Shown here piece after piece: positions 1,916 through 10,625 of a DNA stretch of 64,000 nucleotides. Positions within the stretch are counted from its first letter, which is position 1; every line of letters starts with the position of its first letter. The notes beneath the pieces are model-generated. The model was not told where the DNA came from. It was given only the letters and a program-made list of their open reading frames with translations, and searched no databases. The stretch is from Pelolinea sp. (GTDB lineage Bacteria > Chloroflexota > Anaerolineae > Anaerolineales > Anaerolineaceae). The position numbers and the translations under genes were made by a program. Location of the stretch: the NCBI GenBank assembly GCA_030692365.1, contig JAUYCC010000090.1, positions 1-64,000 on the forward strand, written 5' to 3'.

Positions 1916-3310
1916 ATGGCTATTGAAGAGTTAATCGAATTTACAAAAGAGAAAATAAAAGAATTTGGGGGAAAAGAAGAAGAACCCAAGAATTATGTAT
2001 TCAGAAACAATACCAAGGTAAATGCGCTTGAAGAAGGCGGTGCTTATTTTGGATTTATTCATCCTGAAGAAGAACCTACTGGGGCTTACCACGATTTATG
2101 TATAGTTCTCTTTCCCGACGAATCTGATGGGGAAAATCCTTGGTTATTATGCCTTGGTATAGGTTCCTTAGGTTTTAAGAATGATTTTGAAATAGCTTCT
2201 TTACCAGGATTACGCAGGTCTTTTGAAGGAATTATAAGTAATAATGGTTTTTGCAAAACTGATTTAACAGATATTGACCAACCTCTTCCAAAAGAGTTTA
2301 TGGATAGAATTCCTCACCTTTCATCTTCCCTAAAAATGTACTCCAAATTACTTCCTGTCTGTGAAATTCTTGATGATCCCTTAAGTCTAAAAAGCAAAGA
2401 ACGAATCGCTGCCTTCCTTGCAATTTATGCAAAAGCGCGAGGATGGATTAAACCACGCCCAAAAAGATTATTGGAAAGCTATACTGCTGCAATAAAAGCA
2501 GTAAGAACTGAAGAAGATATTAATGATGAAGAAAAGTTGCTCAATTTAATCACAAGAAGAAAGTTCGTTATTCTCACTGGAGCTCCAGGAACAGGAAAAA
2601 CAAGGCTGGCCAAAATCGTTAGTACAAAACTAAATGCTGAATCGTTTTTTGTTCAATTTCATGCAGATACAGATTACTCAGATTTTATCTATGGGATCAT
2701 TCCAAATCTCGAAAAAGATACTCTTGGATATAAGGAAAAAATTGGAACATTTAGCAAAGCCTTGAAGTATGCAAAAGAAAATCCAAATCAGAAAGTCTTA
2801 CTCATTGTGGATGAAATTAATCGCGCAAATCTTTCAAATATTCTAGGTCCGATCTTTTACCTCTTTGAATATAGGTTAAATAAGACCGAAGCATCTGAGG
2901 AAATCGAGATTTACCCGGGGTTTAGAATAGACCGAATTCCTGAAAATTTCTTTATGATCGGCACAATGAACACAGCTGATAGAAGTCTTGCAGTCGTAGA
3001 TTTTGCCTTACGTAGAAGATTTGCTTGGTATGAATTAAAACCTAAACCTGTAAATAACGATGGCTTTTTTCTTGAAGATTTTCAAGAATTCCAGGAAATA
3101 TTTTTTTGGTATGCGAATAGTCAAGAACTTAATTTACAACCAGGACAAGGTTACTTTTTTGCAGATAACGAAGATGAATTCAAATTAAGGATTGAATATG
3201 AATTATTACCATTGATCAGGGAATATTTACAGGAGCAACTCCTCAAACCCGCACAGGAAGAATTTAATAATTATTTTTATCGTCGAATAGAGAAAAATAT
3301 TTTTTCATAA
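1916..3310 (+). CDS. mcrB: McrB-like AAA+ GTPase subunit of a type IV restriction system
   Basis: This 464-aa protein has an AAA+ motor in its C-terminal half. The P-loop GAPGTGKTR is at about residues 222-230, the Walker B VDEINRAN at about 297-304, and the McrB signature GTMNTADRS at about 349-357 is followed by the arginine-finger stretch ALRRRFAW. In McrBC the GTP-driven hexamer translocates modified DNA and activates the McrC nuclease. The ~200-residue N-terminus should be the DNA-reading domain; I do not recognise its fold. A strong AAGGAGGAG Shine-Dalgarno precedes the ATG. The stop codon directly abuts the start of the next gene. AT-rich composition suggests horizontal transfer. Confidence 0.9.
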   Translation: MAIEELIEFTKEKIKEFGGKEEEPKNYVFRNNTKVNALEEGGAYFGFIHPEEEPTGAYHDLCIVLFPDESDGENPWLLCLGIGSLGFKNDFEIASLPGLRRSFEGIISNNGFCKTDLTDIDQPLPKEFMDRIPHLSSSLKMYSKLLPVCEILDDPLSLKSKERIAAFLAIYAKARGWIKPRPKRLLESYTAAIKAVRTEEDINDEEKLLNLITRRKFVILTGAPGTGKTRLAKIVSTKLNAESFFVQFHADTDYSDFIYGIIPNLEKDTLGYKEKIGTFSKALKYAKENPNQKVLLIVDEINRANLSNILGPIFYLFEYRLNKTEASEEIEIYPGFRIDRIPENFFMIGTMNTADRSLAVVDFALRRRFAWYELKPKPVNNDGFFLEDFQEFQEIFFWYANSQELNLQPGQGYFFADNEDEFKLRIEYELLPLIREYLQEQLLKPAQEEFNNYFYRRIEKNIFS

Positions 3311-4687
3311 ATGGTCACCCCTTCAGTTTTTTGCTCAATTCCATGCTTAACTGAGAGATCCCGCTCATTCTCAGCTTCAGAATTGACCTCCAAGTGGTTT
3401 TCAAAGAAGGATAAAAGATATATAGATAGGACAGTTCAAGATTTTTTAAACTTGAATTCTTCATTATTAGATTTTATTGGAGTAACACCTATCGTAAGCG
3501 GATCGTTTAAAGATTTATCCTTGTCCTTTAGGTCAGGGAGTTTCATAGGGGCGATTCCATTAAAGTCTCCTGATGATGGGAAACCTTTTGCTGACTTTCT
3601 CGTTTATCCGAGGTACATAAATGAAGCAAAAGAAAACGTAAATGAATATATTGAAATCATCTACCTACTAGAAAAAGAGATTGACTTAGAGTTTAGAGAC
3701 TCAAGTAATCTTCTAACAAAAAACCAAGCTCGACCACCAATCTATTATGAATGCGTTAAATTTATTGATTTATTTTTAAAGGCAATTCAAGAAAATTGGG
3801 TTAGTTTCAATTCTTCTATTGAAATCAATAAATATCCTAGAAATCAAATATCTTGGAGGCAATACTTAAAAGATGAGTGGGATCCTATAAAAAAGCTTGA
3901 GTATCCTTGCCGAATAAATACTTTGAATAAATATCACAACGGGATGATGGAATTATTGTATGTCTACAACCTTTCAAAAAACCATGTATTAGATCACAAT
4001 ACGCCCATAATAATTCGAAAATCATCTATTAAGAAGTGTTTTGTTATTGATAATTACTTTTCCACATATAAACCATTACAAACAGATAAATTGGTTATTC
4101 ATAACTCTGATCCATATTTAATTAAACAAACCAAAGATCAAGCAAATAAAATTCTTGGATATGAATCTCAAGTAAATATAGCCTGGCGGGTAGATTTTAC
4201 GAATATATTTGAAAAATATATTCAATATATTTTTAATAACATTAGCCAGCGACTAGGATGGAAAACAAAGAATAATCCTAAATATAAAAGCTATTCGGAT
4301 AGTCGGCCAACATGGAGCTTGCAATATTTAGAACCTGATATTGTCATTTCAAAAGGTAAATATTCTGTGACAATTGATGCAAAATATAAGTCACATTATT
4401 ACAATATCGATTCTTCATCAGATAATTTGAAGCTCGAACATAGGAATGACCTTCATCAAATCACGGCTTATTGTGCATTTCAAATCAATCAAAAAAAGGT
4501 TGGATTTCTATGTTATCCTGCATCTTTCTTTGATTCAAAAAGAATGATTTTTAATAACAGCCAAGCTTTGACAGATGTGGTTATTTATTTATTTGGAATT
4601 CCAATTTCATCAACTAATATAAATGGGGTCATTGATAAAGTACAGAAACAGTTTATTGATATTGTAAATAAAGAAAAGCTCATTTGA
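3311..4687 (+). CDS. mcrC: McrC-like PD-(D/E)xK nuclease subunit
   Basis: This 458-aa protein starts on the base following the McrB stop, so the two are translationally coupled. The nuclease core is visible near the C-terminus: EPDIVIS (about residue 341) followed by VTIDAKYKSH (about 354-363) gives the D...(D/E)xK triad, and DLHQITAYC (about 380) is the helix typical of McrC/Mrr-type nucleases. The N-terminal 250 residues are divergent and contain the region expected to contact McrB. Together with the upstream genes it forms a compact modification-dependent (type IV) restriction module with its own regulator. Base composition is AT-rich, unlike the genes after 4746. Confidence 0.88.
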   Translation: MVTPSVFCSIPCLTERSRSFSASELTSKWFSKKDKRYIDRTVQDFLNLNSSLLDFIGVTPIVSGSFKDLSLSFRSGSFIGAIPLKSPDDGKPFADFLVYPRYINEAKENVNEYIEIIYLLEKEIDLEFRDSSNLLTKNQARPPIYYECVKFIDLFLKAIQENWVSFNSSIEINKYPRNQISWRQYLKDEWDPIKKLEYPCRINTLNKYHNGMMELLYVYNLSKNHVLDHNTPIIIRKSSIKKCFVIDNYFSTYKPLQTDKLVIHNSDPYLIKQTKDQANKILGYESQVNIAWRVDFTNIFEKYIQYIFNNISQRLGWKTKNNPKYKSYSDSRPTWSLQYLEPDIVISKGKYSVTIDAKYKSHYYNIDSSSDNLKLEHRNDLHQITAYCAFQINQKKVGFLCYPASFFDSKRMIFNNSQALTDVVIYLFGIPISSTNINGVIDKVQKQFIDIVNKEKLI

Positions 4688-4745: not shown

Positions 4746-5510
4746 CTACCTCGTCCCAAACTCCCCATACTCTCCCTTCATGTACCTTCTGTGATCCTCC
4801 TCCGGCCTGCCCGCCCTGCGGCGCGACATGGCAATGATGGCCGGGTTGACCACCGAAACCAGCGAGGCAATGGTCAGCCCCTTCTGGCGGCATTCATCAA
4901 TGGCTTTCGCCAGGTCCGTTTCCTCCACCCCGGCTTTTTTCATGCGCTCCAGCGCCCGCGCCCATTTGCCTTCACACCCCGGGAAAAGCGGTATCCCGGT
5001 CCGTTCGACAAACAGTTTTACCAGCCCATCCTCCCGGATGCCGCTGCCGCGGCTTTCATCTCCGCCATCTTCATCTTCCTTCTCATCTGTTTCCGCATCT
5101 GCGTCTGTATCTGCATCTGTATCTGTGTAACGATTCGTTACATTATCGTTACAGGGTTCGGAAGGAGCGTTTTTCCCTATCCGTATTGTTTCCCTGTGCC
5201 TGCGCACGCGCTCGGACATAGGGGTGGCGTCCTGTCGCTCCTTAAAATGCGTCACCAGCCAGCCGCCGTCCGCGCCGCGGCTGAGGACATTCAGCGCTTC
5301 CAGGTCCTCCATCTGCGCGTACAGCGCCACTTCATCCGCGCGCAGGCGCCAGGCCATATCCGCCAGCGGCGGCAGCGCGCCCCCACGGTTGCAGTCGCCC
5401 GCGATCAGAAAAAATTCAATGGCACGCCTGAAAAGCGTGTCCGGCAGGCGCCCCATCTTGGGGTCATCCAGAATTTCGTGATAAAGTTTGATCCAGTATT
5501 TGGAAGCCAT
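4746..5510 (-). CDS. Phage replisome-organizer/DnaD-like protein
   Basis: A 254-aa protein with three parts. Residues 1-105 are a winged-helix-like region beginning ASKYWIKLYHEILDDPK, resembling the N-terminus of phage replisome organizers. A low-complexity acidic linker follows (TDTDADTDADAETDE and onward, encoded by an ATCTGT/GCATCT microsatellite at about 5088-5130). The C-terminal 100 residues are helical and basic at the end. Such proteins load helicase at phage origins. No other phage gene is nearby, so this is probably a solitary prophage relic that has kept its frame. Family assignment is by resemblance only. Confidence 0.5.
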   Translation of the reverse strand: MASKYWIKLYHEILDDPKMGRLPDTLFRRAIEFFLIAGDCNRGGALPPLADMAWRLRADEVALYAQMEDLEALNVLSRGADGGWLVTHFKERQDATPMSERVRRHRETIRIGKNAPSEPCNDNVTNRYTDTDADTDADAETDEKEDEDGGDESRGSGIREDGLVKLFVERTGIPLFPGCEGKWARALERMKKAGVEETDLAKAIDECRQKGLTIASLVSVVNPAIIAMSRRRAGRPEEDHRRYMKGEYGEFGTR

Positions 5511-6780: not shown

Positions 6781-9075
6781 CTACATTCCATCCGCAAGCG
6801 CACAAACAGAATCAATTTTAAAGAAATTCAGTCCACATTCTGCCATTGTCCTTTGCCGGTTCCAGGCATGCATAGGCAGGCTGAGCTGCTCGCCCAGGTC
6901 AGAGCGCACGTGAACGCGCAGGTCTTCCTCCGCCACCCCAAAGGGCTGCAACAGGGCGGCCGCGGCGCGCAGCATCAGGTCTTCATAATAATCAAGATCC
7001 AGCGCGGCCGGGTCGGGCGTGGAGGGCAGGTTCCAGGCATGCACGCCGGGTTTGCCGAGCGTGAACAGCAGGCGGATGCGCTGCCCGGGTCGCGTGGGTT
7101 TGCCGGCCGCCAGCAGCTGCAAAGCGGCGCGCGCCCCCGGTGAGGGCACGCGGTAACCAACCGGTTCTTTGCTGAGTTTCTTACCCACCAGCAGGCTTTC
7201 CAGCGGCACGCGCCCGGCGCGCAAGTCGCGCAGATGCCCGCGCAGAATATCCAGCGCCGCGCTGATCTGCCCGCGCAAGACATCGGGGGTCTCGGCGCGC
7301 GCCAGGCAGCGCAGCATTTCACGCTGCGTATCGGCCACAAAGGGCGCCGAGTCGCGCCGGTGCAGGTCAATGCCACGCGCCTTCACGCTGTTGTCCTGAA
7401 AAACGCCAAAATAGCGGTTGGGCACTGGCAGGCGCTCATCCACGCGCGAAGGCAAAAAAGCCACCCAGTGGTACACGCCGTCCAGCGCCACTGGCAGCGA
7501 GGTGCGCGCGGCCACCTCCTCCAGCAAAGGCTGAAAATCCTGCGGCTGGCGGCAGCCGTCTTTCTTGACCCACAGCCCGTCCACATACATGTGCAGTATG
7601 TTGAAGCCCATCTCCTCGGCAACCTCTTTGGCGCGCAGCAGCGCCTCGCGCCCCCAGGTGGTCACCGCCTCATGCGCCTCAATGCGCCCGAAGCGCGCGT
7701 TCTTGTAACCCAGGTAGCCGAAGCAGGTCACCAGCAGCCACTTGTGCGCTTCGGAGCGTGCCTTGTCCATCCGCCGGCGCGGATCCCATACCGGCAGGCT
7801 GAGCGCGCGCTGCTTGAGCGCCACACGTTTCTTCAGCAACGGGCCCAGCGTGAGCGGCACCAGCCCGGGCGGATAATCGGAACTGCCCAGCCGGTCAGGG
7901 AAGGGCGTTTCGGGCGAGATGTTGCTACGCACCATGATGGAGGGATACATGGAGATGAAGTCGATCATGCCCACATCAAAGTGCAGCCCGGTGATGGGCT
8001 GATACACCAGCCCGCCCTGGTCAAAGCGGATCAGGTCGGCGGCAGTCTTGGGCCATTCAGCCTGCTGTTTGCGCCAGGGTACCAGAATATCGTTGCGCAG
8101 CGCGGTGGTGATCTGCATGGAGGAAATGCCCGTGCCGGGCGAGACGTGCGCGGCAGTCTGGATGGGCAGCGCGGTGATGCGCGCCGTCTCCAGCGCGCCT
8201 TCCAGGTCGTAGTCCTGCCACATCATGGCGTTGCGGCAGTCAATATGGCAGCGCCCGTAGAGCAGAATCTGCTGGCCGCGGTAGATGATCTGGCCGTAGG
8301 AGAAGTAACTGCCTTCTTTCTTGTGCATCACGCCGCGGTCGGGGTCGCGGTTGAGCGGCAGAGGCAGGTTGTGTTTCTGCGCCAGGTCCAGCAAGTAAGG
8401 CAGCAGCCAGGTGTCGCCGTTGGCCGTCAGCAGCAGGTCGGGGTCCAGGCGGGTGAGCAGCGCGCGCAGGTTGACCAGCAGCGGGCGCTCGTCTTCCAGC
8501 GAGAAGCGGTATTCATGCCCGTCGTGGCTGGCGATCAGCGCCCGCGGGTCGGCGTGCGCCGGGTCGCAGTCCGGCCGCAGCGCCAGCGCGCGCAACGGCG
8601 CTTTGGAGGGATCCAGGTCCCAGGGCGAATCCAGCACGCGCAGTTCCTGAATAAGCCCGCTCTCATCCGCGTGTACGTAACAGCGCGCCAGCGGAAAGGT
8701 GCCGTAACGCGCCGCGTGGCGCAGGCTGATGGCCAGGTCCGCGTCGTAATAATCAAGGCCGGGAAAGCGCTGCGTGATCTCATGGAAAAGCTGCGGCTGG
8801 CGCGCGGCATGCTGCAGTTCAATTTTCAGCACGGTCAGGGGTTCAGGCTGGAAAAGATCGTGTCGTTGGTCTTTGGCCAGGCGCGGCTGAAGCGGGTGGC
8901 GGCGCAGCCAGGCCCACAGGTCTTTCAGTTGGGCGCGTTCGCCGGCGGCATAGAAGGTTACCGGAAAATCCTGCCGCAGGCGGTGGCGCCCGCCGTCGTC
9001 GGCGATCAGCCACAGCGCCACGCCCCCGCGCTCATCTTCATAAAGGTCCAGCAGCCAGCCGGTCAGGTCAGCCAT
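6781..9075 (-). CDS. Family-B DNA polymerase with degenerate active sites (PolB2-like)
   Basis: This 764-aa protein is recognisable as family B by motif A DFISMYPSIM (about residue 370) and motif B KWLLVTCFGYLGYKNARFG (about 443-461). Motif C, normally YGDTDS, is YVDGLWV (about 496-502), so the second, metal-binding Asp is missing. The 3'-5' exonuclease motifs are also eroded: no DxE at Exo I, and the Exo II position reads TANGDTWLLPYL. Loss at both sites matches what is known of the archaeal PolB2 group and its bacterial relatives, some of which take part in damage tolerance. I start at ATG 9075, which overlaps the upstream stop by 8 bases; the ~50 residues before it in the open frame are Arg/Cys-rich and overlap the previous gene. 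Third gene of a three-gene operon. Confidence 0.9.
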   Translation of the reverse strand: MADLTGWLLDLYEDERGGVALWLIADDGGRHRLRQDFPVTFYAAGERAQLKDLWAWLRRHPLQPRLAKDQRHDLFQPEPLTVLKIELQHAARQPQLFHEITQRFPGLDYYDADLAISLRHAARYGTFPLARCYVHADESGLIQELRVLDSPWDLDPSKAPLRALALRPDCDPAHADPRALIASHDGHEYRFSLEDERPLLVNLRALLTRLDPDLLLTANGDTWLLPYLLDLAQKHNLPLPLNRDPDRGVMHKKEGSYFSYGQIIYRGQQILLYGRCHIDCRNAMMWQDYDLEGALETARITALPIQTAAHVSPGTGISSMQITTALRNDILVPWRKQQAEWPKTAADLIRFDQGGLVYQPITGLHFDVGMIDFISMYPSIMVRSNISPETPFPDRLGSSDYPPGLVPLTLGPLLKKRVALKQRALSLPVWDPRRRMDKARSEAHKWLLVTCFGYLGYKNARFGRIEAHEAVTTWGREALLRAKEVAEEMGFNILHMYVDGLWVKKDGCRQPQDFQPLLEEVAARTSLPVALDGVYHWVAFLPSRVDERLPVPNRYFGVFQDNSVKARGIDLHRRDSAPFVADTQREMLRCLARAETPDVLRGQISAALDILRGHLRDLRAGRVPLESLLVGKKLSKEPVGYRVPSPGARAALQLLAAGKPTRPGQRIRLLFTLGKPGVHAWNLPSTPDPAALDLDYYEDLMLRAAAALLQPFGVAEEDLRVHVRSDLGEQLSLPMHAWNRQRTMAECGLNFFKIDSVCALADGM

Positions 9076-9334
9076 GCAGCGCCCCGCGCAGTTCATCCAG
9101 TTCGCGGCACAGGCGCAAAACCTCTTTGTGCTGTTCCAGCAGCATGGAGAGCAGGAACGTCTCCATGGGCAGGGCGTGCGCCGCATAGGCCGCCGCCGAG
9201 AGGTGCTGCCGGGCAGATGCGAACAGGTCATCCAACGCCAGCTGGTCGGCGCGGCGCAGGGCGCGGCGGAAGCGCGCGAAGGCCTCCTGCTCCTGGATAA
9301 AGGCCTGGGTGATGGAAGGCAGGGTGCGTCCCAT
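9068..9334 (-). CDS. Small helical protein of the PolB2 operon
   Basis: An 88-aa, largely alpha-helical, charged protein (TQAFIQEQEAFARFRRALRR, then METFLLSMLLEQHKEVLRL). No recognised domain. Its ATG lies two bases after the stop of the RecA-like gene (TGAGCATG) and its own stop overlaps the polymerase start, so the three are translationally coupled. An AGGGAA Shine-Dalgarno precedes the ATG; a GTG at 9355 would add seven residues. Conserved position between a RecA-fold protein and a polymerase suggests a bridging or regulatory subunit, which is inference. Confidence 0.8.
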   Translation of the reverse strand: MGRTLPSITQAFIQEQEAFARFRRALRRADQLALDDLFASARQHLSAAAYAAHALPMETFLLSMLLEQHKEVLRLCRELDELRGALHG

Positions 9335-9336
9335 GC

Positions 9337-9882
9337 TCAGGTTCCCTGTTCCCACAGCGTGGGCACTTTAGGCACAGGCAGCGGTTCAAGCTGCCAGGCG
9401 CCTGAAGCGGCGCCGCGCAAGGCCTCCGCCAGCACAGCACGTTCGGCGCTAATGGGGGCGGGCGGTTTGGCGCTGACCACCACCGGGGCAATCTGGCTGA
9501 GCCTCTGGAGGTGCGGGATGCAGCCCGCCAGCAGGCGGCGGCTTTCATTCAGGTTCACGCTTTCGTCGTAGAAGGTGGCCAGCAGGTCAATCACCAGCAG
9601 CGGGCGCGGCTCGGCGGGCATCTCCGCTAGCATGGCCGCGGCCTGGTAGCAGGTGAAAGCCCGCGCCAGGCGGATGCGCGCCAAGGCAGAGGTCAGCTCG
9701 GGGCTGTAGCGGCGGATGGTGCGCGCCACCGGGTAAACATTAAAACGGTTGCCGCCGTCCAGCACGCGCAGCTCGCCGGTCAGCGCCAGTCTCGCCGCCA
9801 GCTCCAGCATCAGCTTCACGGCCGCGTGCGGCGCGGTGAGCACCAGCAGTTGATTGGAAAGGGGTAAAGTGAGTGCGTCCAT
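9337..9882 (-). CDS. RecA/RadA-fold protein lacking the Walker A motif
   Basis: A 181-aa single-domain RecA-like protein. Where intact relatives have GxxxxGKT after the first strand, this one reads LTAPHAAVKLMLELAARL, with no P-loop lysine. Other landmarks survive: RVLDGGNRFNVYPVAR (as in RadA/KaiC-type ATPases), RIRLARAFTCYQ, and a Walker B-like PLLVIDLLATFYDE. It therefore should not hydrolyse ATP and may be a structural RecA paralogue, comparable in role to ImuA in bacterial ImuA-ImuB-DnaE2 mutasomes. First gene of the PolB2 operon. Its ATG coincides with the predicted transcription start, so the message is probably leaderless. Confidence 0.82.
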   Translation of the reverse strand: MDALTLPLSNQLLVLTAPHAAVKLMLELAARLALTGELRVLDGGNRFNVYPVARTIRRYSPELTSALARIRLARAFTCYQAAAMLAEMPAEPRPLLVIDLLATFYDESVNLNESRRLLAGCIPHLQRLSQIAPVVVSAKPPAPISAERAVLAEALRGAASGAWQLEPLPVPKVPTLWEQGT

Positions 9883-9888
9883 GTTTTA

Positions 9889-9917
9889 ATAATAGAACAT
9901 TATTTCTATATTGTCAT
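9889..9917 (-). promoter_or_regulatory. Promoter and palindromic operator of the PolB2 operon
   Basis: On the minus strand: -35 ATGACA (9917-9912), a 17-bp spacer, -10 TATTAT (9894-9889). The spacer is occupied by the palindrome ATAGAA-N6-TTCTAT (9892-9909 on the plus strand, ATAGAACATTATTTCTAT). Six bases after the -10 comes the A of the ATG at 9882, predicting a leaderless mRNA. The same palindrome in the same position precedes the LuxR-type gene at 10591. Confidence 0.75.
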
Positions 9918-10007: not shown

Positions 10008-10196
10008 CTAAAGAATGGCGTGCGTGAGAACAATGCGCAGGCCGATTGCGATGAGCACCAGCCCGCCCAGCACTTCCACGCCCTTGCCGAAGCGTCTGTT
10101 CAGCCGGCTGCCGCCCAGCAGTCCGATAACGGAAACGATCAGTGATACTGCCCCGATCATCAGGCTGGCCGCGATTACGTTCACCTTGAGCAGCCA
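10008..10196 (-). pseudogene. mntP: C-terminal remnant of an MntP-type manganese efflux pump
   Basis: A 62-codon stretch in frame with TAG at 10010-10008 reads LLKVNVIAASLMIGAVSLI, then GLLGGSRLNRRFGKGVEVLG, then GLVLIAIGLRIVL. This is the last helix pair of the MntP (YebN) family, which normally has ~185 residues. It has no start and its 5' end runs into the 3' end of the LuxR-type gene: the same bases encode the end of that gene in another frame. A deletion has evidently fused the two loci. The remaining 100 bases to 9918 hold nothing I recognise. Confidence 0.7.
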
Positions 10197-10591
10197 CCCT
10201 CACCAGACCATACGCTCAGGTCCCATCCATCCAGCATCGCGCGCAGTTCGCGGCGGGAGCACAGGCCAAACTTACGCAAAATGTGACGCATATGCGTCTT
10301 GACCGTTTCGGGCGAAATCACCAGCCGCGCTGCAACCTGGCGGCCGGTCAAACCGGCGCACACCAGCGCGGCCACCTGTTTTTCGCGCGGTGAGAGCGCT
10401 TCCCAGTTTTGGTGGGCATGGTCCGCGCTGCGCTGCGATTCCAACGCCTGATTGATCAATGAAAAGATCACCTCGTCAGGCGTGCGCTTATCACGCTCCG
10501 CCAGCGATTCCACGCGTTGCAGCAAGTCCTCATGCTCCCGGCCAACAACCTTATGGCTGCTGTTCGTCTTTAAATACTGCCAAAGGGTCAT
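10181..10591 (-). CDS. LuxR-type HTH transcriptional regulator
   Basis: A 136-aa protein. Residues ~65-128 are a LuxR/GerE helix-turn-helix (LSPREKQVAALVCAGLTGRQ, then VISPETVKTHMRHILRKF). The ~60-residue N-terminus is helical with no response-regulator receiver. I start at ATG 10591, 7 bases after a consensus -10, which gives a leaderless message; the open frame upstream runs through the promoter. The C-terminal ~6 codons coincide with the junction to the mntP remnant and may not be original. It shares its operator with the PolB2 operon, so it is either a co-regulated gene or the regulator of both. Confidence 0.85.
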   Translation of the reverse strand: MTLWQYLKTNSSHKVVGREHEDLLQRVESLAERDKRTPDEVIFSLINQALESQRSADHAHQNWEALSPREKQVAALVCAGLTGRQVAARLVISPETVKTHMRHILRKFGLCSRRELRAMLDGWDLSVWSGEGGCSR

Positions 10592-10597
10592 ACCACC

Positions 10598-10625
10598 ATT
10601 ATATAGAACATAGTTTCTATTGTCA
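10598..10625 (-). promoter_or_regulatory. Consensus promoter with operator palindrome before the LuxR-type gene
   Basis: On the minus strand: -35 TTGACA (10625-10620), a 16-bp spacer, -10 TATAAT (10603-10598). The palindrome ATAGAACATAGTTTCTAT (10603-10620) fills the spacer, so a bound protein would block RNA polymerase. The core GAAAnnnnGTTC on the minus strand is one mismatch from the Gram-positive LexA box GAACnnnnGTTC. Confidence 0.8.

Follow-up and report, generated by a model that had tools for sequence, protein, structure and literature searches.

PolB2 mutasomes have been described in bacteria and archaea (Timinskas et al. 2025, PMC11791011), and the sole bacterial PolB2 operon order reported in that study is iRadA-PPB2-PolB2. 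The published models of the PolB2 complex are heteropentameric, MGRT is the arm motif of PPB2, and a beta-clamp motif is present in PolB2 or iRadA in a fraction of the members (PMC11791011). In PolB2, the YxDTD of motif C becomes HxxxD, whose second Asp coordinates metal (PMC8764526). Sulfolobus Dpo2, an archaeal PolB2 of the HxxxD type without exonuclease motifs, is a robust polymerase, as active as the replicase, and serves as an extender (PMC8764526).

The locus that we analyzed lies in a 64-kb stretch of DNA from Pelolinea sp., hereafter the window, in which three closely spaced genes are arranged in the order iRadA-PPB2-PolB2 on the minus strand, across 9882..6781. The first (9882..9337) encodes iRadA, an inactive RadA/Rad51 homologue of 181 aa in which the P-loop is absent; the second (9334..9068) encodes PPB2, a small partner protein of 88 aa with an N-terminal MGRT arm; and the third (9075..6781), which overlaps the PPB2 gene by 8 nt, encodes PolB2, a family-B, translesion-type polymerase of 764 aa that begins with MADLTGW and carries EQLSLPM at its C-terminus. 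The polymerase start at 9231 given in the ORF list was rejected as too early because homologues begin at the equivalent of MADLTGW and the 52 extra residues overlap PPB2 in another frame. The initial annotation was correct in proposing a PolB2-like mutasome, a type of system that is already described for bacteria and archaea (PMC11791011). We consider it very probable that 9882..6781 is a bacterial PolB2 mutasome operon with a catalytically competent PolB2 and SOS control through a LexA-type box; to judge from the sequence, the locus is a probable SOS-controlled translesion polymerase.

iRadA matched no Pfam family. Its predicted model (pLDDT 92.7) retrieved RAD51, DMC1, and RadA chains in Foldseek, and a profile of the iRadA family found RadA (7.7e-7). 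The P-loop position is occupied in the window by LTAPHAAVKLML, and a GKT P-loop, which had been named beforehand as evidence against a degenerate complex, was absent from every iRadA homologue compared. The protein is a RadA/Rad51 homologue that lacks both the ATPase motifs and the N-terminal domain, the combination by which this PolB2 mutasome component is recognized, and its ATPase site looks dead. The earlier description of a RecA-fold protein without a P-loop was therefore sound, the fold being of the Rad51/RadA type by model, and so was that of a small helical protein, which proved to be of the PPB2 type and helical by homology. PPB2 begins with MGRT, a start that is nearly invariant among relatives, and has PHROG matches.

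The assignment of the third protein to family B was borne out by its match to PF00136 (2.6e-23). Against NCBIfam type B polymerase models, it reached 4.6e-108, under that model's cut-off, while a profile built from 30 sequences retrieved archaeal family-B polymerases from the PDB (5mdn, 7.7e-74) and the AlphaFold model (pLDDT 87.7) matched KOD polymerase and its kin. Motif C reads LHMYVDGLW in the window, an H-x-Y-V-D pattern, and H-M-Y-V-D aligns with Y-G-D-T-D in the columns of both active-type PolB from that phylum (DTDG) and the solved polymerase 5mdn (YGDTDS). In this alignment, Tyr occupies the position of the first Asp, and the second, metal-binding Asp is D499, a change of YxDTD with the second Asp kept that fits the HxxxD signature. 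The initial reading of YVDGLW in place of YGDTDS was mis-registered, the surviving Asp having been taken for the first. Among homologues, D499, D372 of motif A, and K445 of motif B are invariant and H495 is nearly so; retention of the second Asp, which had been named beforehand as fatal to the degenerate-complex idea, overturns the notion of an inactive polymerase and leaves that of a mutasome untouched.

Unlike ImuB, PolB2 most likely provides the catalytic activity, because D372, K445, and D499 are kept and archaeal PolB2 of the HxxxD type is active. Since HxxxD is the signature of active archaeal extenders, the signs of inactivity are confined to the exonuclease and the RadA ATPase; of the "two degenerate enzymes" first proposed, the RadA-like protein stands as ATPase-dead by sequence, and the polymerase, with its three retained residues, falls away. 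An ImuA-ImuB-DnaE2-like arrangement, in which the RadA-like protein and the polymerase would both be dead scaffolds for another polymerase, could appeal to the lost ATPase site and the altered motif C, but it is very unlikely in view of the invariant motif A, B, and C residues and of the activity of archaeal homologues with the same motif (PMC8764526). The operon encodes a family-B polymerase and neither a Y-family ImuB nor a C-family DnaE2 subunit.

The claim of eroded exonuclease motifs was upheld: the exonuclease domain PF03104 scored under its cut-off and, in comparison with 5mdn, Leu stands in place of the ExoII Asp and the ExoIII region could not be aligned. By sequence, the 3'-5' exonuclease of PolB2 looks inactivated. 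The C-terminal EQLSLPM fits a loose beta-clamp pattern; the iRadA tail of the window, VPTLW, is a poor clamp motif that does not match such a pattern. Loose beta-clamp patterns were found in 23 of 38 iRadA tails and 9 of 38 PolB2 tails, with both present in seven loci.

PolB2 was found in 29 of the 41 genomes of the sample of relatives (the window's own counted), and the triplet sought in relatives, iRadA, PPB2, and PolB2, was recognizable, with the gene order of the window, in all 37 related loci examined. A fusion of iRadA and PPB2 is clear in one locus (L039/L080), and in L088, the iRadA frame ends in a PPB2-like tail. For pairs more than 72% identical, dN/dS (NG86) was mostly 0.05-0.3 in all three genes, the two exceptions at 0.5-0.6 involving a dS of only 0.03 in one case and G+C-rich short genes in the other; the nearest homologues of the window PolB2, 54-60% identical, are too distant for a sound dN/dS on its own branch. 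At highly conserved columns, the window copy showed mismatches of 0/10, 0/12, and 4/128 in the three genes. The three genes are under purifying selection, and the family values lie far below the value near 1 that had been named as incompatible with a degenerate complex.

A decaying pseudogene operon left by lateral transfer would account for a G+C content of 65% against 46% in the flanks and for the truncated mntP that adjoins the operon. The three open frames, the mismatch counts, and the low family dN/dS reduce the probability of such decay to almost nothing, as the initial annotation had argued from the open frames against plain pseudogenes. Moreover, the PolB2 tree groups the window with sequences of the same genus (G002 and G003, support 100/99), and the operons of most relatives are likewise richer in G+C than their flanks (L054-L090), the difference reaching 19 points in the window. 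On the strength of the same tree we rejected a recent acquisition from another genus, to which the difference in G+C and the incomplete mntP had pointed. As the window PolB2 and its G002 and G003 counterparts are joined in it, the operon probably goes back a long way in the genus and was moved in one of the lines; a move within the genome is possible.

The mntP C-terminal remnant (10193..10020, minus strand; 58 codons with 69-71% identity to the intact gene in same-genus genomes) stands between the genes for iRadA and a GerE-type protein and is a neighbor that lies outside the mutasome. In the same genus, the order glmU-cdd-recO-nifU-box-GerE is found, with an intact mntP farther on, downstream of GerE, in G002 and G003; in same-genus genomes with that order, PolB2 is elsewhere or was not found. 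On the other side of the operon, 1916-4687 holds an AAA_5-type ATPase gene followed by a gene for a 458-aa protein without family match, a layout like that of a McrB-McrC restriction pair, and its best PADLOC match was a type II restriction enzyme model.

The operon also has mobile carriers. Leptospira phages (with LE1-type names) carry the full iRadA-PPB2-PolB2 set (L048:4183-7259 and L049:4081-7349) and keep both MGRT and the HxxxD motif C; read from these sequences, the triplet is a phage-borne mutasome. All three genes are also carried by a Halorubrum plasmid, a scan of viral contigs with PPB2 gave no match, one of genome contigs with PolB2 gave no usable match, and our literature search found no paper on the Leptospira phage polymerase. 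These phage triplets, together with the phage-type replication initiation protein encoded at 4746-5510, would suit a phage or mobile-element polymerase sitting on an island in place of a host repair system. We regard this origin as highly improbable: the same-genus sequences cluster, the operon, together with LexA-type boxes, is common on the chromosomal contigs of relatives, and the phage and plasmid copies likewise retain all three mutasome genes. The initiation protein near the operon was identified through phrog_3926 (9.3e-9).

Upstream of iRadA, a palindrome near TAGAACANNTGTTCTA recurs in many loci. In the window, it takes the form of a LexA-type box, TAGAAATAATGTTCTA (9893..9908, minus strand), that sits within the spacer and -10 element of a putative sigma70-like iRadA promoter, ATGACA-17-TATTAT (9889..9917, minus strand). 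Only 6 nt lie between the end of this promoter and the iRadA ATG, and the transcript is possibly leaderless. With a matrix from which it had been left out, the box scored 21.0, higher than any other site in the 64 kb; peak scores in 30 simulated windows were 10.0-17.2. The second best site (18.1) was another LexA-type box, TAGAAACTATGTTCTA (10604..10619, minus strand), directly 5' of the GerE-type gene. Across loci, an upstream LexA-type box was present in 33 of 38, and boxes of at least 16 bits numbered 38 in 49 kb of upstream sequence versus 2 in 510 kb elsewhere; about 15 of those 38 were training sites of the matrix, the remainder, mostly before GerE genes, lying outside the training set. 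The genome has one LexA, whose gene is preceded by two lower-scoring boxes of this type (13.0 and 12.1 bits), and the identification of the palindrome as a LexA box is well supported by these sequences. A genome-wide search with the exact pattern AGAACNNNNGTTCT returned two further perfect sites (L096:2859 and L097:2867, on contigs C74 and C56), which are candidates for operators of other SOS genes.

The gene behind the second box (10181..10591, minus strand) encodes a GerE/LuxR-type HTH protein of 136 aa (GerE, 6.2e-16). In 22 of 38 loci, a GerE-type gene with the orientation of the operon lies directly upstream of it, and there the box usually precedes the GerE-type gene. In some genomes, among them one (G001) in which PolB2 was not found, the GerE family profile also found extra copies at a distance from PolB2, and all five such copies that were fetched had a box of 18-24 bits just upstream, none of them in the matrix training. 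Remote copies thus carry boxes too, so that the HTH gene is linked to the box, whereas its tie to the operon is only loose. The simplest guess is that the GerE-type protein may be a second regulator, forming a second layer of control. More tentatively, a two-tier SOS circuit could operate in the phylum, in which LexA would control both the operon and the HTH protein with its C-terminal WDFSxW tail, the latter acting as a specific activator or as a fourth mutasome partner; we hold this to be conceivable but rather doubtful. The main text of PMC11791011 makes no mention of LuxR, HTH, or helix-turn-helix, and the available portion of PMC7544198 none of PolB2, RadA, LuxR, or Leptospira.

From published homologues we infer complex formation, extender activity, induction by damage, and mutagenesis. 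Upon DNA damage, LexA would leave the promoter-overlapping box, and iRadA, PPB2, and PolB2 would be produced together. The proofreading-deficient but catalytically competent PolB2 would be held by an iRadA scaffold without an ATP site and by a PPB2 trimer whose MGRT arm points towards the PolB2 active site, and the complex would be anchored on the beta clamp, in this case probably by the QLSLP motif at the C-terminus of PolB2. Such a mutasome could take over once a different polymerase has inserted a base and elongate primer termini that are mismatched or distorted by a lesion; a single Y-family polymerase is encoded in the genome, on another contig. The outcome would be damage tolerance at the price of mutation, and the box-controlled regulator upstream may add its own layer of control.

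In comparison with known systems, the locus agrees with the PolB2 mutasome (PMC11791011) in the order of its genes, the missing P-loop, the MGRT arm, the loss of the first DxD Asp, the dead exonuclease, and the link to LexA in bacteria; the clamp motif of PolB2 or iRadA may have a counterpart here in the PolB2 tail EQLSLPM, which fits a loose pattern. That study reported lexA genes nearby, whereas the window has a LexA-type operator in the operon promoter and a conserved, small GerE-type regulator gene beside the operon, both of which are new. A well-conserved bacterial lineage is thereby added to PolB2 mutasomes, its operon is placed behind a LexA-type operator, the reading of the polymerase as dead is corrected on the basis of its retained motifs, and bacterial versions are offered in which a role of the complex as the mutagenic polymerase of the cell can be tested. 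Sulfolobus Dpo2 (PMC8764526, PMC7390963) likewise has an HxxxD motif C, no exonuclease motifs, and a damage-linked operon, but it is archaeal, has Ile at the position of the first Asp, where the window has Tyr, and works with PCNA rather than the beta clamp. ImuA-ImuB-DnaE2 is also an error-prone polymerase made up of several proteins, one of them RecA-like, and linked to SOS; its polymerase families are unrelated, however, and ImuB is an inactive PolY homologue, whereas PolB2 is most likely catalytic. Finally, E. coli Pol V (UmuD'2C-RecA) similarly combines a polymerase, a RecA-family protein, and a small subunit with an N-terminal arm (PMC11791011), but its polymerase is of the Y family, its RecA is active, and its small subunit is unrelated to PPB2.
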